Assembly: GCF_019884725.1 (NCBI RefSeq) | Contig: NZ_CP082322.1 | Coordinates: 1,798,001-1,862,000 of the forward strand | Direction: 5' to 3' | Length of the DNA stretch: 64,000 nucleotides | Source: Leucobacter tenebrionis | GTDB taxonomy: Bacteria; Actinomycetota; Actinomycetes; Actinomycetales; Microbacteriaceae | Shown here: positions 18,124 through 28,123 of the stretch, one piece after another | Layout of the letters: the number at the start of each line of letters is the position of its first letter | How positions within the stretch are numbered: position 1 is the stretch's first letter | The notes under the pieces: model-generated | Told to the model about the DNA's origin: nothing | Seen by the model: only the letters and a program-made list of their open reading frames with translations | Database searches by the model: none | Translations under genes and position numbers: made by a program

Positions 18124-19537
18124 GTAGTGCCCCGTAAAGTGGTGTAGCGCACGGTGGCCAGCACGTCGTAGAACGTGGACGCGGTCACCGTGTGATCCTT
18201 CGAGGAATCTCCTACAACCCACTCGAAAGGCATCAACACGATGACCGCTCCTACTATTGTCGACCCTGCCGGCCTGCTCAGCGAAGCTCTCACCGACGCG
18301 TCCCCGGATCTGATGCGCAGTCTGTTGCAGACCATGATCAACGCGCTCTTGTCCGCGGACGCGGACGCCGTGGTCGGCGCTGAATGGGGCAAGCCCTCAT
18401 CCGACCGGATCACGCAGCGCAATGGCTACCGACACCGCGACCTCGACACCCGGGTCGGTACGATCGATGTCGCGATCCCGAAGCTTCGGCAGGGAACCTA
18501 TTTCCCCGAATGGCTGCTCGAGCGCCGCAAACGCGCCGAGACCGCGCTGATCACCGTCGTCGCCGACTGTTACCTTGCCGGCGTGTCCACACGCCGGATG
18601 GACAAGCTCGTCAAGACCCTCGGCATCCATTCCCTGTCGAAGTCGCAGGTGTCCCGGATGGCGGCGGAGCTCGATGCACACGTCGAGCAGTTCCGACACC
18701 GACCGCTCGACGACGCCGGTCCGTTTACCTTCGTTGCCGCCGACGCGCTCACCATGAAAGTTCGCGAGGGCGGCCGCGTCATAGGCGCAGTGGTGCTCGT
18801 CGCGACCGGCGTCAACGGCGACGGGCGCCGCGAGGTGCTCGGCCTGCGCGTGGCCACCAGCGAGACAGGGGCGGCCTGGAACTCGTTCTTCGCCGACCTC
18901 GTCGCCCGCGGTCTCGGAGGCGTCCGCCTCGTCACCAGCGACGCCCACCAAGGACTCGTCGAAGCAATCGCAGCGAACCTGCCCGGTGCTGTTTGGCAGC
19001 GCTGTCGCACGCACTACGCGGCGAACCTGATGAGTGTGACACCGAAGGCCATGTGGCCGGCGGTGAAGGCGATGCTGCACTCCGTCTACGACCAGCCCGA
19101 CGCCGCCGCGGTCCACGCTCAGTTCGACCGGCTCCTGGACTACGTCGACGGGAAACTGCCCGACGCTCACGAGCACCTCGACGCGGCCCGCGCCGATATT
19201 CTCGCCTTCGCGCAGTTCCCGGAAGGCCTGTGGCAGCAGATCTGGTCCAACAACCCCAACGAGCGTCTCAATCGGGAAATCCGCCGCCGCACCGACTCCG
19301 TCGGGATCTTCCCGAACCGGGACGCGATTATCCGCCTCGTCGGCGCGGTCCTCGCCGAGCAGACCGATGAATGGGCCGAAGGACGCCGCTACCTCGGCCT
19401 CGACGTTCTCGCGAAGAGCCGCCTCACCCTCGTCACAGACAACGACGTCGAGGAGGTGATCGATACCGTTCTCGAGCTCAGCGCCTGACCCCATCACCAC
19501 GAAGGACCAACCGTTACACCACCACCCGGGACTTGAC
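18124..19537 (+). mobile_element. IS256-family insertion sequence, copy 1
   Basis: A 1414-bp element. Ends are inferred by comparison with copy 2: the left begins GTAGTGCCCCGTAAAGTGGT, and the right end read inward begins GTCAAGTCCC followed by a shared GTGGTGTA block. The terminal repeats are therefore imperfect, about 25 bp. No 8-bp target duplication is present. The left end truncates a resident gene at 18123. Confidence 0.8.
18241..19488 (+). CDS. IS256-family transposase, intact
   Basis: A 415-residue Mutator-type (IS256) transposase. The acidic catalytic residues are visible: Asp168 in VAADALTMKV, Asp234 in TSDAHQGL, and a Glu in the conserved NPNERLNREIRRRT block (residues 338-351, Glu341 or Glu346). 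The frame is unbroken from ATG to stop. It is roughly 93 percent identical by eye to the transposase of copy 2 over the alignable region, so the copies are related but not recent duplicates. Confidence 0.93.
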   Translation: MTAPTIVDPAGLLSEALTDASPDLMRSLLQTMINALLSADADAVVGAEWGKPSSDRITQRNGYRHRDLDTRVGTIDVAIPKLRQGTYFPEWLLERRKRAETALITVVADCYLAGVSTRRMDKLVKTLGIHSLSKSQVSRMAAELDAHVEQFRHRPLDDAGPFTFVAADALTMKVREGGRVIGAVVLVATGVNGDGRREVLGLRVATSETGAAWNSFFADLVARGLGGVRLVTSDAHQGLVEAIAANLPGAVWQRCRTHYAANLMSVTPKAMWPAVKAMLHSVYDQPDAAAVHAQFDRLLDYVDGKLPDAHEHLDAARADILAFAQFPEGLWQQIWSNNPNERLNREIRRRTDSVGIFPNRDAIIRLVGAVLAEQTDEWAEGRRYLGLDVLAKSRLTLVTDNDVEEVIDTVLELSA

Positions 19538-19642
19538 CAGGAGTCATGTTGCTCTAGGAAGTAGTCGACGCAGAGAAACCGCACGTTGATCTCTGAATTG
19601 GCCTGGGTTGAGTTCCGATCTTTATACAAGGATGGAACTACG

Positions 19643-19957
19643 ATGCCAAGCAAATATGACCCTGAACTTCGCCAGCGCGCACTTCGGATGCTCGCCGAAG
19701 CCCGCCCCGAGCACGAGTCGCTGACCGCGGCCTGCCGTCACGTCGGTGGGCTCCTCGGAGTGAGCTCGGAGACGCTGCGCGTGTGGCAGCGCCGCTACGA
19801 CATCGATACCGGCGCGAAGCCTGGCACCTCGATCGATATGGCCCAGGAGAACCGGCGGTTACGCCGCGAGGTGAGCGAGCTCCGTAAGGCCAACGAGATA
19901 CTCAAAGCCGCGAGCGTGTTTTTCGCGAAGGAACTCGACCGGCCACGAACGAAATGA
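19643..19957 (+). CDS. IS3-family OrfA (helix-turn-helix subunit)
   Basis: A 104-residue protein with an HTH_Tnp_1-like domain (PELRQRALRMLAEARPEHES and LLGVSSETLRVWQRRYDI), then a leucine-zipper segment (ENRRLRREVSELRKANEILK) ending KAASVFFAKEL, all diagnostic of IS3 OrfA. It overlaps OrfB by four bases (ATGA). OrfB is in the -1 frame relative to OrfA, as expected for production of the OrfAB transposase by frameshifting; the slippery site is not obvious. Confidence 0.93.
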   Translation: MPSKYDPELRQRALRMLAEARPEHESLTAACRHVGGLLGVSSETLRVWQRRYDIDTGAKPGTSIDMAQENRRLRREVSELRKANEILKAASVFFAKELDRPRTK

Positions 19958-20865
19958 TCAGATTCATCGACGAGTACCGTGATCGTTTCGGGGTCGAGTT
20001 CCTCTGTCGTACGCTGCGTGCGCCAGTTCGTGGGTTCCTCACCTCCCGCGGATACCGGGCCGCGAAAGCCCGGTCGGCCTCAGCCAGGCAGCTGCGCGAC
20101 GAGTTGCTCCTCCCTGAGATCCGGCGGCTCCACGCGAAGCACTATGGCGTGTACGGGCGCCGGAAGATGCATGCCCTGCTGAAGCGTGAGGGGTGGAAGA
20201 TCGGCCGCGACCAGACCGAGCGTCTGATGCGGCTCGCCGGCGTGCGCGGGGTACGGAAATCAAAGCGCGTGTTCACCACACGCCCCAACAAAACGGCGGC
20301 ACTGCCTGCCGATCTCGTCAACCGGAGATTCGCCGCTGACGGGCCGCGCAAGCTCTGGGTGTGCGACGTGACCTACGTCGCCACCTGGTCTGGGTTCGCC
20401 TATGTCGCGTTCGTCACTGACGTGTACTCGCGCAGAATCGTGGGCTGGAATGTCGCTGCGACGCTGAAATCTGAGGTTCTGCCGATGCAGGCACTCGATA
20501 TGGCTGCGTGGCAATCGGGCGGCAGGCTCGATGGGCTGATCCATCACGCCGATCACGGGTCGAATTACACTGCCATGGTCTATACGGATCGCATTGCGGA
20601 ACTCGGAGCAGTGCCCTCGACCGGGACGGTCGGCGACAGTTTTGACAATGCCATGGCTGAGGCGGTCAACAACCTCTACAAGACCGAACTGATCCGACAG
20701 CAGGGCCCCTGGCGGACGGTTGAGCAGGTCGAACTCGCGACCCTCGAATACGTGTGGTGGTGGAACCATGAGCGCCTTCACGGGGAACTCGATATGCGCA
20801 CCCCGATCGAGGTCGAGCAGGCCTACTATGCTGAGGCCGAGGAACTTCTGTCACCGACAGGTTGA
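19954..20865 (+). CDS. IS3-family OrfB (DDE integrase domain)
   Basis: A 303-residue protein with the HTH_21 region (KHYGVYGRRKMHALLKREG) and an rve-type catalytic core. The DDE triad is intact: Asp138 in WVCDVTYV, Asp200 in HHADHGSNYT, and Glu236 in DNAMAEAVNNLYKTEL. With OrfA it forms the transposase of the surrounding IS. There is no disruption, so the element looks competent to transpose. Confidence 0.94.
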   Translation: MIRFIDEYRDRFGVEFLCRTLRAPVRGFLTSRGYRAAKARSASARQLRDELLLPEIRRLHAKHYGVYGRRKMHALLKREGWKIGRDQTERLMRLAGVRGVRKSKRVFTTRPNKTAALPADLVNRRFAADGPRKLWVCDVTYVATWSGFAYVAFVTDVYSRRIVGWNVAATLKSEVLPMQALDMAAWQSGGRLDGLIHHADHGSNYTAMVYTDRIAELGAVPSTGTVGDSFDNAMAEAVNNLYKTELIRQQGPWRTVEQVELATLEYVWWWNHERLHGELDMRTPIEVEQAYYAEAEELLSPTG

Positions 20866-21003
20866 CAGGAAAACCGGTCGGAACTCAAACCAGGCCAATT
20901 CACTCTGATTCTAGGTGCTACGGTCGCTGGCGATAGAACGCTGGAGGCATGATCCAGGAGCCTCGCCCTCTCACTCGAATCGGCGCTTAACGCTGGTTTA
21001 TGT

Positions 21004-22146
21004 TCATTCCGCTGCTGAAACCGTGCAATCGCTTGTGTCCGTTCGTTTCAGCTGACCCGCGCCCTCAAACTCCGTAAGCATGGACGCGTAGGTTCTGACA
21101 TCGATTCCTTGCGTGGTGAGCCAGTCATCGTTGTAGTAAGTGGAGACGTACCGGTCACCGGAATCGCAAATGAGTGTGACGAGGCTGGTAGCTTCTCCGG
21201 ATTGTTCGAGTTCTTGTGCGAGGAGTAGCGTTCCCCAAAGGTTCGTCCCAGTTGAGGCGCCAACGCGTCGCCCGAGGAGCCGGGAGAACCAGCGCATTGT
21301 CGCGATGGAAGCGGCATCCGGAACGTGGATCATGCGGTCGATGAGTTCGGGGTAGAAGGAAGGCTCGACCTGCGTGCGTCCGATTCCCTCGATGCGAGAC
21401 GGCGTAGTCGTTCGCACGGACCGGTCATTCTGTCGCCATCCTTCAAAGAAGGCTGAGCCATCCGGGTCGACCACAGCTACACGTGTGTCATACCCACGAT
21501 AGCGCGCGTGGCGCGCGAAGCAGGTGCTCGTACCGCCCGTGCCGGCACCCACGACGACCCAGCTGGGAACGGGGTTCTCCGAGAGCCGGAGCTGTTCATG
21601 CACTTCTTCGGCAATGTTGGCGGTGCGCCAGTCGGTTGCGGTGGCTGCATTCGTGAATTGATCTATGAAGTACCCGCCGCACTCTGTCGCGAGACGCTGT
21701 GCCTCCGTGGTAACGGCTGACGCCTCTTCCACGGTGTGGCAGCGGCCCCCGTAATGCTCGATCATTCGGAGCTTCTCTGCGCTTGTATGCGCTGGTACGA
21801 CAGCTATGAAGGGGAGGCCTATGAGCGCAGCGAAGTACGCTTCACTCACGGCGGTCGAGCCGCTCGACGCCTCGATGATGACCGTGTCGGGGCCGATCTC
21901 ACCGTTGCAGAGCGCCTGAACGAAGAGGGATCGAGCGAGGCGATGCTTCAGGCTTCCGGTGACGTGCACCGACTCGTCCTTGGCATAGACGGTGACGTTG
22001 CGAAACTGGGGGAGTGGCAGCTTTATCAGCGGCGTTCTTACGCTCTGCTGTGTCTCGGCTTCGATCCGTCGTAGGGCTTCACGCGTCCATGCTCGATGTG
22101 TGTTCGTTCGGGGAGCATCCATCTCGACAAGCTGCAGTGCCTTCAT
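21004..22146 (-). CDS. PLP-dependent lyase of the cysteine synthase superfamily, Cds1-like
   Basis: A 380-residue fold-type II PLP enzyme. PLP-binding Lys67 lies in VTGSLKHRLARS, the substrate loop is ASSGSTAVSEAYF, and the phosphate-binding GAGTGGTS spans residues 200-207. It closely resembles mycobacterial L-cysteine desulfhydrase Cds1 as I recall it (SLKHRLARSLF, ECGGYFIDQFT). Cds1 yields pyruvate, ammonia and sulfide via 2-aminoacrylate. In this cassette it may instead deaminate another amino acid intermediate. The start has GAAGGAA about 12 nt upstream. It lies downstream of LysR on the same strand. Confidence 0.82.
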   Translation of the reverse strand: MKALQLVEMDAPRTNTHRAWTREALRRIEAETQQSVRTPLIKLPLPQFRNVTVYAKDESVHVTGSLKHRLARSLFVQALCNGEIGPDTVIIEASSGSTAVSEAYFAALIGLPFIAVVPAHTSAEKLRMIEHYGGRCHTVEEASAVTTEAQRLATECGGYFIDQFTNAATATDWRTANIAEEVHEQLRLSENPVPSWVVVGAGTGGTSTCFARHARYRGYDTRVAVVDPDGSAFFEGWRQNDRSVRTTTPSRIEGIGRTQVEPSFYPELIDRMIHVPDAASIATMRWFSRLLGRRVGASTGTNLWGTLLLAQELEQSGEATSLVTLICDSGDRYVSTYYNDDWLTTQGIDVRTYASMLTEFEGAGQLKRTDTSDCTVSAAE

Positions 22147-22302
22147 AACTCAGATCAATTCCTTCGGGGTGGGGGCGCAGGCATCACCAGCCCGCAAATC
22201 GGTGGGCTGTGCAGCGAACCTCGCGGTCAGCCCTTGTTACCGATTCTGCCTACCTTTGGGCAAAGTGCAAGCAATGATTAATGCGTCAAATCAAAGAAAT
22301 GC

Positions 22303-23238
22303 TTATGTTTCTGCACCTTGAGAAAGACGCTCTGCAGCCCACTGCAGAGAGGAGATCAAGTGCTGGACGGCCGGTGATGAAGCATTCGATCGCAGAAAGG
22401 TGGCTGTAACGAGTCTGACCCGCTCGGGGGACACTTGGCGGGTTCTGAGTCGGGGGAGCTTCACCACTGACTGCACCATGCGTGGCATGAGGGCGAGTCC
22501 CAGCCCCGAAACGACATAGCTCTGGACGGCGAGGTTGTCGTCAGTGGCGATATCGACCTTCGGGTTGAACCCTTCTGCGGCGCAGGCGTCTATGAACGCC
22601 TGACGGCACCTCACGCATCCAGCGATCCATCTTTCGCTGCTGAGTTCGCTGAGGGAGATCTTCTGCCTGCGGGTGAGTGAGTGGGAGTCGTTCATGAAGA
22701 GCAGGAGCGGCTCCGAAAGAAGCGGCACGGTTATCGTGTCATGATCTTCGCTTTGGTGCTCTTCCGGTGTTGACCCGTCGGCGTAGTGGAACGAAATCAC
22801 TACGTCGTAGATACCCTGGCTGAGTCCGTTAAGAGATTCCGGAGGCTCCGCCTCGAAGAGCTCAATCTCGATCCCCAGCTGCGCGGAGCGCAAATGTGAG
22901 ATCGCCGGAGGCAAGAGCGCTGCGTTTGCGCTCGGAAACGCACATACGCGCACTGAGCCGCGACGTAGTCGGGTCACGGCGTTGACACGCTCCTGGGCAG
23001 ACTGCAGCGCGGCCAAAAGTACGGGGGCTTGTTCCGCGAGGGTTTCGCCTTCGTTGGTGAGTTGCAATGTGCGACCCGCCCGTACGAACAGTGCGGCTCC
23101 CAGCCGGTCCTCCAAGGCCCGGATCTGTTGGCTGATCCCCGGTTGCGTGTACCCGAGGGACCTGGCGGCAGCGGCGAAGGTGCCCTCGCGCACGACTGCG
23201 TCGAAAGTGATCAGTTGCTGCACGTCGAACATGTCCAT
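22303..23238 (-). CDS. LysR-family transcriptional regulator
   Basis: A 311-residue LTTR. The winged HTH is at residues 4-60 (LITFDAVVREGTFAAAARSL, then TQPGISQQIRALEDRLGAAL), followed by the periplasmic-binding-like effector domain. The frame reaches back to 23511, but the upstream part overlaps the divergent MHS gene; the ATG at 23238 (or 23232) gives the canonical N-terminus MDMFDVQQL. No Shine-Dalgarno is evident. It is divergent from the MHS-RidA-amidohydrolase operon and probably controls it. A Cys pair in GCVRCR is unusual. Confidence 0.9.
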   Translation of the reverse strand: MDMFDVQQLITFDAVVREGTFAAAARSLGYTQPGISQQIRALEDRLGAALFVRAGRTLQLTNEGETLAEQAPVLLAALQSAQERVNAVTRLRRGSVRVCAFPSANAALLPPAISHLRSAQLGIEIELFEAEPPESLNGLSQGIYDVVISFHYADGSTPEEHQSEDHDTITVPLLSEPLLLFMNDSHSLTRRQKISLSELSSERWIAGCVRCRQAFIDACAAEGFNPKVDIATDDNLAVQSYVVSGLGLALMPRMVQSVVKLPRLRTRQVSPERVRLVTATFLRSNASSPAVQHLISSLQWAAERLSQGAET

Positions 23239-23487
23239 AAGTATAAGAATTCTTTTGAGATAGGCAATATTTCCTCTCTTGCTGTTTGATATATGGGTCT
23301 GTGAAAGTTGAAGTGGTCGACCTTCAGGAACAAGCGACCTCCCGACGGTTCGCGCATGCTGATGCGTCGAGCGCGTGATGGGAGGAGCGGACTCAAAGGA
23401 GAGAAAGCGTATGTGTAATTTGGGATCGAGCGCGCGCCGCAGACTTGGGCCGCAGAACAAACCTCTAGCCGGAGGGCGAGACGCCTC
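23239..23487. promoter_or_regulatory. LysR/MHS divergent regulatory region
   Basis: This 249-bp AT-rich gap holds a perfect palindrome AAGAATTCTT (23245-23254) six bases before the lysR start. It also holds a dyad TGAAG-N8-CTTCA (23309-23326) around the palindromic core GGTCGACC (23315-23322), with the T-N11-A form expected of LTTR sites. GGAGGG sits about 10 nt before the MHS ATG. Site assignments are by pattern only. Confidence 0.5.
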
Positions 23488-24816
23488 ATGAGCGAACAGG
23501 ATATTCAGCAAAGCTCACGGTCTCAGCGCCTTCGCGCGGTCGGGGGTAGCGTGGTCGGCACAGCGCTGGAATGGTACGACTTCTTCCTCTACGGAACCGC
23601 TGCAGCACTGGTGTTCAACCAGCTCTTCTTCCCCTCGGTCGACCCGCTCACTGGCACCTTGCTCGCCTTCGGTAGCTTCGCCGTCGGGTTCATCGCAAGG
23701 CCCGTCGGCGCGGTGGTATTCGGCAACTACGGTGACCGGATTGGTCGCAAGAAGGTGCTGGTGATCACCTTGATCATCATGGGTATTGCCACCGTGCTGA
23801 TCGGCCTGGTGCCGACCTATGAGACTCTGGGTATTTTCGCCCCCATTCTGCTCACCGTCCTCCGATTCGCGCAGGGGTTCGGTCTTGGTGGCGAGTGGGG
23901 CGGAGCCGTCCTGATGTCGCTCGAACATGGCGACCCCAAACGTCGAGGTCTCTCCGCGAGCTGGCCGCAAATCGGAGTCCCACTCGGACTCTTGCTGGCA
24001 AATGGCGTGCTTGCGGTCATGACTGCGATCACCACGGATGAGCAGTTCATGGCGTGGGGATGGCGAGTGCCGTTCCTTCTTAGTATTTTGCTCGTCGGGA
24101 TCGGGATGTGGATCCGCCTGCACGTGACAGAGTCGCCCGAGTTCGAGAAGGTCGCTACGAGCGGTATCCGGGTGAAGCTCCCGATCGTGGAGGTACTTCG
24201 CACGCAGCGGCGTGAACTCCTGATCTCCACCGGCGCACGTATCGGCACCGATGTTGCGTTCTACATCTACGTCCTGTTTATCGTCACGTATTTGACGCAA
24301 ATGGTCAGCATGGATCAGTCCATCGCACTCCTCGCCGTCCTCGTTAGCGCGGCAGCCATGCTGCTTTTCATTCCAGCATTCGGAGCGTTGTCGGACCGTG
24401 TCGGACGTCGCCCTGTGTATCTGGCAGGTGCGGTGGGCGCGCTCGTCTGGGTGTTTGCATTCTTCCCGCTGCTTGATACCCAGAACGTGCCATTGATTCT
24501 GCTCGCAGACTTTATCGGAATGCTGTGCTGGGCAGCCATGTACGGTCCGCTCGCGGCATTTACCACCGAACTTTTCCCAGCCCAGGTGCGCTACTCGGGT
24601 GCATCGCTCGGATACCAGCTGGCGGGGATTCTCGGTGGTGCGTTTGCTCCCATCATCGCGGTCGCGCTGTACGGCAGGTTCCAGAGCTGGGTAGCAATCG
24701 CTATCTACGTGAGCGCGATGCTGCTGATCACTATCATTTCTGTCGCAGTCGCGCGGGAGTCGGCAGGAAAGAACCCCACTACCCCAACTTCGGCGATTAT
24801 GGAGGACCGACCTTGA
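23488..24816 (+). CDS. MFS metabolite:H+ symporter (MHS family), cassette transporter
   Basis: A 442-residue, 12-TM MHS protein: GTALEWYDFFLYG in TM1, [13 protein letters not shown] in loop 2-3, GLGGEWGGAV in TM5 and SDRVGRRPVY in loop 8-9. It is the first gene of a short operon with RidA and an enamidase-like hydrolase; its stop overlaps the RidA TTG start by four bases. The likely role is uptake of the cassette's substrate, probably a small organic acid or cyclic amide. Codon usage is less GC-biased than in the two other MHS genes here. Confidence 0.9.
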   Translation: MSEQDIQQSSRSQRLRAVGGSVVGTALEWYDFFLYGTAAALVFNQLFFPSVDPLTGTLLAFGSFAVGFIARPVGAVVFGNYGDRIGRKKVLVITLIIMGIATVLIGLVPTYETLGIFAPILLTVLRFAQGFGLGGEWGGAVLMSLEHGDPKRRGLSASWPQIGVPLGLLLANGVLAVMTAITTDEQFMAWGWRVPFLLSILLVGIGMWIRLHVTESPEFEKVATSGIRVKLPIVEVLRTQRRELLISTGARIGTDVAFYIYVLFIVTYLTQMVSMDQSIALLAVLVSAAAMLLFIPAFGALSDRVGRRPVYLAGAVGALVWVFAFFPLLDTQNVPLILLADFIGMLCWAAMYGPLAAFTTELFPAQVRYSGASLGYQLAGILGGAFAPIIAVALYGRFQSWVAIAIYVSAMLLITIISVAVARESAGKNPTTPTSAIMEDRP

Positions 24817-25301
24817 CCCAGCTCACTCACCTAGAGATTAGCCAGAAGCTCGAAACCTTCGGGTATCCGCTACCCGAAGTGCAGGCTCCTCTCGCAGCCT
24901 ATACACCTGCGCTTCAAGCGGGTAACTTCGTGTTCACCTCAGGCCAGCTGCCCCTCGTTGACGGCGTCCTCGAAGCGACTGGAAAGGTCGGGGCAGGGGG
25001 GATCGATCCCGAGCAGGCTGCGAGGCTTGCCGCGCGATGCGCTGTGAACGCTCTTGCGGCACTTGTCAGCGCCATCGGAGACCTGGGCCGTGTGAAGCGC
25101 GTAGCAAAACTTGTCGGCTTCGTGGCAAGTGACCCGTCGTTTACCGAGCAATCTCTGGTGATCGATGGAGCAAGTCGGCTCCTGCACGATGTGCTCGGCG
25201 AAGCAGGCGTGCACGCACGATCTGCGGTCGGCGTGGCAACCTTGCCGAAGGACAGTCCGGTCGAGGTAGAGCTGATCGTCGAACTGCACGACGAAATATA
25301 A
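24813..25301 (+). CDS. RidA-family (YjgF/YER057c/UK114) enamine/imine deaminase
   Basis: A 162-residue Rid protein. The start is TTG, set by GGAGGA six bases upstream and by overlap with the MHS stop (TTGA). The domain shows NFVFTSGQLPLV, the central CAVNALAALVSAIGDLGRVK helix, and HARSAVGVATLPKDSPVEVE with Arg136 at the position of the catalytic RidA arginine. RidA proteins hydrolyse reactive enamines and imines to ketone plus ammonia. It sits between a transporter and an enamidase-like hydrolase that would release such an enamine, giving it a direct metabolic place (inference). Confidence 0.88.
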   Translation: MTQLTHLEISQKLETFGYPLPEVQAPLAAYTPALQAGNFVFTSGQLPLVDGVLEATGKVGAGGIDPEQAARLAARCAVNALAALVSAIGDLGRVKRVAKLVGFVASDPSFTEQSLVIDGASRLLHDVLGEAGVHARSAVGVATLPKDSPVEVELIVELHDEI

Positions 25302-25349
25302 GAACCTGCTGGCAGCCACGACGAATACAAGAAAAAGGAGTATAGGAAT

Positions 25350-26552
25350 ATGTGGGATGAGAGCTATGAGGCGGGCCACTTCGGCCCGCAACACGGACGA
25401 CTGCTGATCCGAAACCTTCGCGGTGTCGTCACGGGGCGCCTTGGAGACCAGGTGCGCGAGGTCGAAACGGTGCTGATCGAAAACGGTCGCATTATCGAGT
25501 TCGGGGGAGCGGCGGACGCTGCCGACGTGGTGGTCGATGCGCAGGGAGCGGTAGCGATCCCAGGTCTCTTTGACACTCACACCCATTTCGCGATCGGGGA
25601 CTTCAATCCCAAGCAGAACGCAATCGGATTCATCGAGAGCTATATGCACGGTGGTGTGACCTCCATGATGTCGGCGGGTGAGGTGCATTTCCCCGGGCGG
25701 CCCATGGATCGGGACGGCGTGAAGGCGGTTGCGGTCGCCGCAGCACGATCGTTTGAACTGAACCGACCCGGCGGCGTCAGAATCCATGGTGGTTCCCTGA
25801 TGACGGGTCCGTACATGGAGGAATCTGACTACGCTGAGCTCGCGGCAATGGGTATTTGGCTGATGAAGGTCGGTTTCGGCGGCTTTGACAAGCCCAAAGA
25901 CGCTGTGCCGCATGTGCGGTGGGCGCAGGAAGCAGGCTTCCTCGTGATGTCACACTCGGGAGGGGCTTCGTCAGTGCCGGGCATCGCGCCGATCACCGTT
26001 GACGATCTGCTTGCCATGGACCCTGACATTGCAGGACACATCAACGGTGGCACGACAAGTCTCCCCGATGCGGACGTGGAGCGGCTCGTCAAGGAGTCCC
26101 GCGCAGCGCTGCAGCTCGTCCAGGCGGGGAACCTCTCAGCAAGTCTCAAGATCCGCGAGCTCGCCGCCGAGAATGACGGCCTTTCACGCATCATTCTCGG
26201 ATCGGATACCCCGTCAGGCACGGGAGTTATGCCCATGGCCATCATCAAGACGATCGCCGAGCTCTCCTCGATTGGCCGCATCGATCCGACCGAAGTGATC
26301 GCTTACGCCACCGGAAACGCCGGCCGCGTGCTCCGCCGAGAGGAGGGCATCCTCGAAGAGGGGCGTCCCGCAGACCTGGTGCTGCTGCAGGAGCCGACCG
26401 GAGGTTCGCAGGACCACCCGCTGAAGTCCATCGCTCGTGGCGACATCCCCGGTATCGCAGGAGTCATCATCGACGGGCAAATTCGCGCCCAGCGCAGCCG
26501 CAACTCGCCGGCGCCCTCCCGCCTGATCACGGTGCGCTCTTCGGCCGCATAG
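25350..26552 (+). CDS. Enamidase-like metal-dependent amidohydrolase
   Basis: A 400-residue amidohydrolase with AAGGAG before its ATG. It matches Eubacterium barkeri enamidase (6-oxo-1,4,5,6-tetrahydronicotinate hydrolase), as I recall that sequence, along most of its length: MSAGEVHFPGRPMDRDG, HINGGTTSLP, GSDTPSGTGVMP and SIARGDIPGIAGVIIDGQ. Metal ligands are His77 and His79 (THTH), His202 (SHSGG), His230 (HINGG) and Asp286 (SDTPSG). Lys173 occupies the bridging position where enamidase appears to have Glu, as in carboxylated-Lys amidohydrolases. It likely hydrolyses a cyclic enamide or related amide; the substrate is not known. Confidence 0.82.
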   Translation: MWDESYEAGHFGPQHGRLLIRNLRGVVTGRLGDQVREVETVLIENGRIIEFGGAADAADVVVDAQGAVAIPGLFDTHTHFAIGDFNPKQNAIGFIESYMHGGVTSMMSAGEVHFPGRPMDRDGVKAVAVAAARSFELNRPGGVRIHGGSLMTGPYMEESDYAELAAMGIWLMKVGFGGFDKPKDAVPHVRWAQEAGFLVMSHSGGASSVPGIAPITVDDLLAMDPDIAGHINGGTTSLPDADVERLVKESRAALQLVQAGNLSASLKIRELAAENDGLSRIILGSDTPSGTGVMPMAIIKTIAELSSIGRIDPTEVIAYATGNAGRVLRREEGILEEGRPADLVLLQEPTGGSQDHPLKSIARGDIPGIAGVIIDGQIRAQRSRNSPAPSRLITVRSSAA

Positions 26553-26596
26553 AGAAACCTCCAAGGATGCGCTGCGCCCAAGCGCCCTTGGTGGAC

Positions 26597-26632
26597 AATG
26601 GGGCGTACAGGCTAGAGCCTGTACGCCCCATT
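26597..26632 (+). terminator. Rho-independent terminator of the cassette operon
   Basis: A perfect 17-bp stem (26597-26613 with 26616-26632, GC-rich, core GGGGCGTACAGGCT) with a 2-nt loop, followed by TGTGTT. It lies 45 bp after the enamidase-like gene. Confidence 0.85.
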
Positions 26633-26702
26633 TGTGTTAGAGAAGGAGATAGATCGTGCTTCTTAAATCCTCCTCGCATAAGTACTCATGCGACATCGGA
26701 CG

Positions 26703-28123
26703 GTCAAGCCCCGTGAGGTGGTGTAGCGGTCGGTGATCCTTCTGCTGGTGATGTTGGTTAGGCGCTGAGTTCGAGGACGGGGTGGGTCACCTCCTCGATG
26801 CTGGTGTCGGCGACGAGGGTGAGTCGGGACTTCGCGAGGATGTCGAGTCCGAGGTAACGGCGTCCTTCGGCCCATTCGTCGGTCTGCTCGGCGAGGACGG
26901 CGCCGACGAGGCGGATGATCGCGTCCCGGTTGGGGAAGATCCCGACGGAGTCGGTGCGTCGGCGGATCTCGCGGTTGAGGCGCTCGTTGGGGTTGTTGGA
27001 CCAGATCTGCTGCCAGAGCCCCTCGGGGAACCCGGTGAACGCGAGGATGTCCGCCCGGGCGGTGTCGAGGTGCTCGAACGCCTCGGGCAGTTTCCCGTCG
27101 ACGTAGTCCAGCAGTCGGTCGAACTGGGCGTTGACGGCGTCGGCGTCGGGTTGATCGTAGACAGAGTGGAGCATCGCTTTCACTGCTGACCACATGGTTT
27201 TCGGCGTCACGCTCATGAGGTTCGCGGCGTAATGGGTTCTGCATCGTTGCCAGACCGCGCCGGGCAGGTTCGCCGCGATCGCCTCTACCAGGCCCTGGTG
27301 GGCGTCGGAGGTGACCAGGCGCACCCCGCCGAGGCCGCGGGCGACGAGGTCGGCGAAGAACGAGTTCCAGGCCGCTCCCGTCTCACTCGTCGCCACTCGC
27401 AGGCCCAGGACCTCGCGGCGGCCATCGGCGTTGACGCCGGTCGCGATCAGCACGACCGCATTGATGACCCGGCCGCCTTCGCGGACCTTCATCGTGAGCG
27501 CGTCGGCGGCGACGAACGTGAACGGCCCGGCGTCGTCGAGCGGGCGGTGCCGGAACTGATCGACGTGCTCGTCGAGATCCGCCGCCATCCGCGAGACCTG
27601 CGACTTCGACAGGGAGTGGATCCCGAGGGTCTTCACGAGCTTGTCCATCCGGCGAGTCGAGACGCCAGCGAGATAGCAATCCGCGACCACCGTGATCAGC
27701 GCCGTCTCCGCTCGTTTACGCCGCTCCAGCAGCCACTCCGGGAAGTACGTGCCCTGCCGCAGCTTCGGGATCGCGACATCGATCGTGCCGACACGGGTGT
27801 CCAGGTCGCGGTGCCGGTACCCGTTTCGCTGCGCGGTGCGGTCCGGTGAGGGCTTGCCCCATTCCGCGCCGACCACGGCGTCCGCATCCGCGGACAGCAG
27901 CGCGTTGATCATCGTCTGCAGCAGGTTTGCGCATCAGATCGGGCGACGCGTCGAGAAGGGCTTCAGCGAGCACGCTCGCAGGGTCGAGAATACGAGGAGC
28001 GGTCATCGTGATGATGCCTTTCGAGTGGGGTGTGAGAGTTTCCTCGAAGGATCACACGGTGACCGCGCCCACGTTCACGACGAGGCCGGCCACCGCGGGC
28101 TACACCACTTTATGGGGCACTAC
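26703..28123 (-). mobile_element. IS256-family insertion sequence, copy 2 (inverted)
   Basis: A 1421-bp element in opposite orientation to copy 1. The inner end reads GTCAAGCCCCGTGAGGTGGT; the outer end, read inward, is GTAGTGCCCCATAAAGTGGT. The untranslated 5' region is clearly more diverged from copy 1 than the transposase. No target duplication is seen (ATCGGACG on the left, TGCGAACG on the right). Its outer end cuts an integrase gene at 28124. Confidence 0.8.
26758..28006 (-). pseudogene. IS256-family transposase, frameshifted near the N-terminus
   Basis: The native start (MTAPRILDPASVLAEALLDA) at 28006 runs about 26 codons to SPDLMR, then shifts frame. The minus strand reads CGCAAACCTGCTGCAG where copy 1 has CGCAGTCTGTTGCAG; one extra A near 27927-27929 explains it. 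After the shift the sequence continues unbroken to 26758 with the catalytic Asp and Glu blocks intact. An internal ATG at 27912 could give a 384-residue protein lacking about 30 residues. Either inactivation or a sequencing error would explain the shift. Confidence 0.8.

Follow-up and report, generated by a model that had tools for sequence, protein, structure and literature searches.

The gene at positions 25350–26552 (plus strand) of the 64-kb window, by which we mean the whole stretch of DNA that was analysed, encodes a member of a Lys-type branch of the enamidase family, as judged from its sequence. Its Lys173 aligns with the residue that we take to bridge the two metals in the enamidase of E. 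barkeri (2vun), Glu164, and by the same comparisons this Lys is a hallmark of a large branch of the family and not an oddity of the window gene. The open reading frame is intact (400 amino acids), and an AAGGAG resembling a ribosome-binding site lies ~9 nt 5' of its start. A phmmer search of solved structures returned 2vun as the top match (E = 9.5e-95, residues 17–391, 38–39% identity over the full length), which confirms the resemblance to enamidase that a first-pass annotation of the window had noted. Other solved relatives align over short stretches only (E ≥ 1e-5), the next match spanning ~70 residues at E 1e-5. The protein also matches PF01979 (40.9 bits, cut-off 25). An AlphaFold2 model, built from a 56-row alignment of the window protein with genome-contig proteins (mean pLDDT 91.1, pTM 0.92), can be fitted to 2vun with 379 residues aligned at 1.8 Å; its Z-score of 56.9 compares with 31.1 for the entry ranked second.

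The same gaps largely refute a reading of the protein as a hydantoinase/dihydropyrimidinase-type enzyme whose likeness to enamidase is superficial. Enzymes of that group typically have a carboxylated Lys, and they also have the superfamily fold in common with the window protein, but the best hydantoinase match lies far behind 2vun (E 5.6e-5) and we consider this identity scarcely credible. It was rejected also on profile scores: NCBIfam gave 40 matching models, and for none of the 25 that were listed did the score come up to the curated cut-off, the best being 45.6 bits for a metal-dependent hydrolase model with a cut-off of 567.

The first-pass annotation had further placed a Lys at the bridging-Glu position of enamidase, and this assignment holds in each of the comparisons made. 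In phmmer/HMMER, MAFFT and profile alignments, Lys173 (codon AAG, 25866–25868, plus strand) faces Glu164, which reportedly bridges the two metals in the enamidase structure of Kress and colleagues from 2008. A one-residue gap immediately precedes the Lys (KVGFG in the window protein vs GEVGLG in enamidase). The model places Lys173 in strand β4 (residues 171–174); because the alignments and this placement agree, Lys173 belongs to the metal site to the extent that sequence and fold can show it. The remainder of the residue set of a subtype I amidohydrolase (HxH, Lys on β4, His, His, Asp) is complete, and all of its codons lie on the plus strand. His77 and His79 of the HxH motif (25578–25586; His77 in β1, residues 73–78) are predicted Mα ligands, His202 after β5 (25953–25955; β5, 198–201) and His230 (26037–26039) are predicted Mβ ligands, and Asp286 after β8 (26205–26207; β8, 281–284) is the predicted catalytic Asp. 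The window protein thus has in common with 2vun the fold, all His and Asp metal ligands and the long barrel motifs, whereas 2vun has a Gly-Glu164 pair with one extra residue in place of Lys173, Glu245 in place of Gln255 (26112–26114, plus strand; β7, 253–257), and no Glu111.

Conservation was assessed in a 93-protein alignment comprising the window protein, plasmid records, same-genus genomes, 2vun and one genome-contig scan (best 80 of 550 relatives); the scan query was led by the window protein, so that this set and the 108-row set derived from it are biased, and both contain near-copies (for example L019/L103 and L026/L097). His79, His202, His230 and Asp286 are invariant in the 93 rows and His77 is found in 76. 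At position 173, 75 rows have Lys and 18 have Glu. A compensating Glu elsewhere in the protein was not found. Glu111 was considered for this role and rejected because 17 of the 18 Glu-type members also have it, 2vun being the only one without. A sequencing error or chance substitution at codon 173 was likewise rejected: an 87%-identical homologue in a same-genus genome carries the same Lys, the pair is under purifying selection (dN/dS 0.07, dS 1.17), and Lys at this position is found throughout the main Lys clade (84 of 108 family members).

Subtype I amidohydrolases bridge their metals with a carboxylated Lys and subtype II enzymes with a Glu, the other ligands being the same (PMC11342369). 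Enamidase proper, with its Gly-Glu on β4, is of subtype II, and the window protein departs from it by Lys173, by the one-residue deletion and by its position in the Lys clade. Both bridges are known among isoaspartyl dipeptidases, where E. coli IadA (type II) has a carbamylated Lys162 (KCX162) and FiBAP (type I) has Glu156, turned toward the metals by a cis peptide between Gly155 and Glu156 (PMC7774594). In our own alignment, E. coli IadA (K) and the type I isoaspartyl dipeptidase 8dqn (GE) differ by the same one-residue gap. That the enamidase family repeats this pattern is the strongest argument for carboxylation of Lys173. The isoaspartyl dipeptidases act on a different substrate and share 15–18% identity with the window protein in fold matches. 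Ochratoxinase and ADH3 have the kind of subtype I carboxylated-Lys centre predicted here (PMC11342369); ADH3 is among the fold matches, but identity is ~20% and the substrate class is different. By analogy with the dipeptidases, Lys173 is likely to be a carbamate that bridges two metals, and removal of one residue before the Lys would allow the longer Lys-carbamate to reach the spot occupied by the Gly-Glu pair.

The counterpoint is provided by molinate hydrolase (MolA), a family relation with a Lys at the corresponding place; this Lys is uncarboxylated, the site has a single metal, and one Mα His is replaced by Asn (PMC4407906). A site of this kind in the window protein would be mononuclear, with the Mβ metal and an uncarboxylated Lys173 at the bridge position. 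Such single-metal members probably exist in the family, as Gln replaces the first His of HxH in 17 of the 108 rows, all of them Lys-type. The window protein, in contrast to MolA, keeps His77, His79 and Asp286, and we regard the mononuclear alternative as unlikely and retain the carbamate-bridged, two-metal site as the preferred reading.

To the 93 rows were added 15 further loci from a sample of Actinomycetota, in which 14 of 296 genomes matched. In the resulting 108 rows (again including the best 80 of 550 relatives), Lys173 is paired with Gln255 in 84 (67 with HxH and 17 with QxH), Glu is paired with Glu in 22, and Lys with Glu in 2; besides the window, the 15 Actinomycetota loci divide into 9 Lys/Gln, 4 Glu/Glu and 2 Lys/Glu. 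Of the 86 Lys-type rows, 84 accordingly have Gln at position 255; the other two, which are deep Lys rows, have Glu there, as do all 22 Glu-type rows. The Glu class has one extra residue, mostly Val, and a Gly before the Glu in 94% of 18 rows, and the extra residue is absent from all 75 Lys-class rows of the 93-row set. Glu and Lys were mapped onto trees computed without these discriminating columns. On the 93-row tree the exchange is a single change, and on a thinned 48-row tree, which leaves out the long-branch rows L006, L110 and L112, a single split separates the Glu rows (support 100/99), the window protein being in the Lys clade. L110 and L112 are long-branch relatives ~5.5 kb apart in one Actinomycetota genome, both with Lys173 and Glu255. 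With these as root, the Glu/Lys exchange requires two changes and position 255 one; the exchange may therefore have run in either direction, and the root is unsure because the two attach to each other as long branches. The pairing of Lys173 with Gln255 counts as one event and not as independent covariation, since both change on the same branch. L112 has a Thr aligned at the His202 position, perhaps through misalignment. The 17 QxH rows (L036, L042, L043, L046, L049, L053, L054, L060, L062, L063, L068, L070, L073, L082, L085, L086 and L090) occupy at least two separate places in the tree, and by analogy with molinate hydrolase they may hold one metal only.

These distributions bear on the proposal of the first-pass annotation that a carboxylated-Lys centre with an enamidase-like pocket would be an intermediate type in the superfamily. 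That label is not borne out because Lys-types dominate the sampled family (84 of 108 rows Lys/Gln), the exchange is the known difference between subtypes I and II, and isoaspartyl dipeptidases offer a precedent; membership in the Lys-type branch of the enamidase family replaces it. Within the databases searched, the solved structure and known reaction are limited to the Glu-type side and none was found for the Lys-type branch, yet most sampled members are of the Lys type. With matched Glu and Lys enzymes that share a scaffold and are distinguished by a one-residue indel and a fixed Glu/Gln partner, it becomes directly testable why amidohydrolases bridge their metals by a carbamate in some cases and by a Glu in others.

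Among the 15 Glu-type rows from the scan (best 80 of 550 relatives), 12 carry the names of Clostridia, Sporomusaceae, Peptococcaceae, Thermacetogenium, Syntrophaceae, Desulfobacteraceae, Thermodesulfobacteriota, a deltaproteobacterium and a Hecatellales archaeon, lineages that we take to be mostly anaerobic. Lys-type rows come chiefly from Actinomycetota, Proteobacteria, Chloroflexi and Rokubacteria. Association of Glu with anaerobes is not a strict rule, as there are Glu-type rows from Rhodococcus (L012) and from the genus of the window itself (L006). A wider reading, possible but rather doubtful as a whole, is that a Lys-carbamate enamidase branch opens N-heterocycles mostly in aerobes and the Glu branch is used mostly by anaerobes; that the Gly-Glu/Lys indel switch is recurrent, with separate origins in the family of enamidase and in that of the isoaspartyl dipeptidases; and that the deamination half of the reaction has moved to a Rid protein in the window operon.

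This Rid-family protein (24813–25301, plus strand; PF14588) is encoded between the hydrolase and an MFS metabolite/H+ symporter (23488–24816, plus strand; TIGR00883, 452 bits, cut-off 443). A divergent gene encodes a LysR-type regulator (22303–23238, minus strand), and the hydrolase gene is the last of this cluster. The TTG start of the Rid gene overlaps the MFS stop codon (TTGA, 24813–24816) with GGAGGA just 5', and the hydrolase start lies 48 bp 3' of the Rid gene behind its own AAGGAG. Assignment of the Rid protein as a deaminase follows from its PF14588/PF01042 domain and from Arg136, which aligns with Arg105 of E. coli RidA, an arginine needed for deaminase activity (PMC8113886); a PHROGs scan of the protein gave no match.

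From what was observed, namely which residues are present and on which strands, how the family splits, how the operon is arranged and that the Rid protein has its arginine, we consider it probable that the hydrolase is a Lys-type enamidase-family enzyme in which a carboxylated Lys173 bridges two metals, and that it hydrolyses a cyclic amide or enamide whose product then undergoes Rid deamination. In this mechanism, the metals would be held in the (β/α)8 barrel by His77, His79 and Asp286 and by His202 and His230, and Lys173, carboxylated by CO2, would bridge both in place of the E. barkeri Glu, giving subtype I chemistry on the same scaffold. The substrate hydrolysed by the bridging hydroxide together with Asp286 would be a small cyclic amide or enamide, and probably one of the carboxylated N-heterocycles, imported by the MFS symporter. 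Because the deaminase arginine is retained in the Rid protein, we propose that the released enamine or imine would be deaminated by this co-translated partner. Such a partner is chemically sensible, as enamidase itself is bifunctional and carries out both ring hydrolysis and deamination (PMC9304392); hydrolase and Rid protein would then constitute a split version of this one-enzyme double reaction, as suggested by one operon. The locus of the 87%-identical homologue retains the LysR, MFS and hydrolase genes, with no Rid match found between the latter two, and a window-like Rid gene is present in 1 of 106 family loci; the Rid handover is thus no general feature of the family.

The protein might instead be a plain enamidase, with the Lys a neutral structural alternative. 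Enamidase proper (EC 3.5.2.18) hydrolyses 6-oxo-1,4,5,6-tetrahydronicotinate to 2-formylglutarate, and the long common motifs and full-length identity to 2vun are what would be expected of an enzyme acting on the same substrate. We give this alternative a low probability, as the window cluster contains MFS and Rid genes, inspection of a part of the window ORFs brought up no recognisable gene of a nicotinate pathway, and the closest Lys-type relatives adjoin genes for dihydropyrimidinase-like (17 of 106 loci), isochorismatase-like (15), DUF1989 (15) and class II aldolase (13) proteins. Other family loci adjoin FAD monooxygenases (10 of 106) or LigB dioxygenases (5 of 106). The neighbours indicate N-heterocycle catabolism, in pathways without assignment, and from this context a substrate other than that of enamidase is plausible for the two-metal, Lys-bridged enzyme that we favour.

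L015 (3024–9503) and similar loci encode dihydropyrimidinase-like, isochorismatase-like, AA_synth, Lys-type enamidase, DUF1989, class II aldolase and NMT1-like binding proteins, and this conserved cluster looks like an N-heterocycle pathway without assignment. Literature on degradation of pyrrole-2-carboxylate, and on pyridine breakdown with formamide and succinate semialdehyde, yielded nothing usable for the pathway, and among the papers followed on pairs of Rid proteins and amidohydrolases there were general Rid papers and RutC only. A PF06684 (AA_synth) gene lies near the hydrolase in 81 of 106 family loci of both types (48 of 66 HxH Lys-type, 15 of 17 QxH, 18 of 21 Glu-type and 0 of 2 Lys/Glu). 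None is present in the window cluster or in the locus or genome of the 87%-identical homologue. PF06684 proteins have a chorismate-mutase-like fold and an unsettled function, and the available part of the paper describing their structure makes no mention of an enamidase-family neighbourhood (PMC2954203). The window's own genome has two neighbouring AA_synth genes (G000:C1:2243574-2244685, L119), far from the island that contains the hydrolase.

This island also encodes a PLP enzyme resembling the L-cysteine desulfhydrase Cds1 (21004–22146, minus strand; 508 bits, below the cut-off of 600). Third-position GC is 0.68–0.74 for the PLP-enzyme, LysR, MFS and hydrolase genes, compared with ~0.9 for most neighbours outside. 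The flanks carry IS256-family transposase genes in opposed orientation (left, 18241–19488, plus strand; right, 26758–27912, minus strand, 85% alike to the left copy). Low third-position GC and the two opposed transposases suggest that the island was probably acquired. Only 6 of 100 related genomes, among them the window's own, have hydrolase homologues with E ≤ 1e-20, and a DNA search for the island among plasmids gave no match. The inverted IS256-family elements, with arms 85–86% alike, lie on either side of the low-GC3 island within 18171–28076, and the two copies differ too much for a fresh composite transposon. An IS3-like ORF pair lies at 19643–20865.
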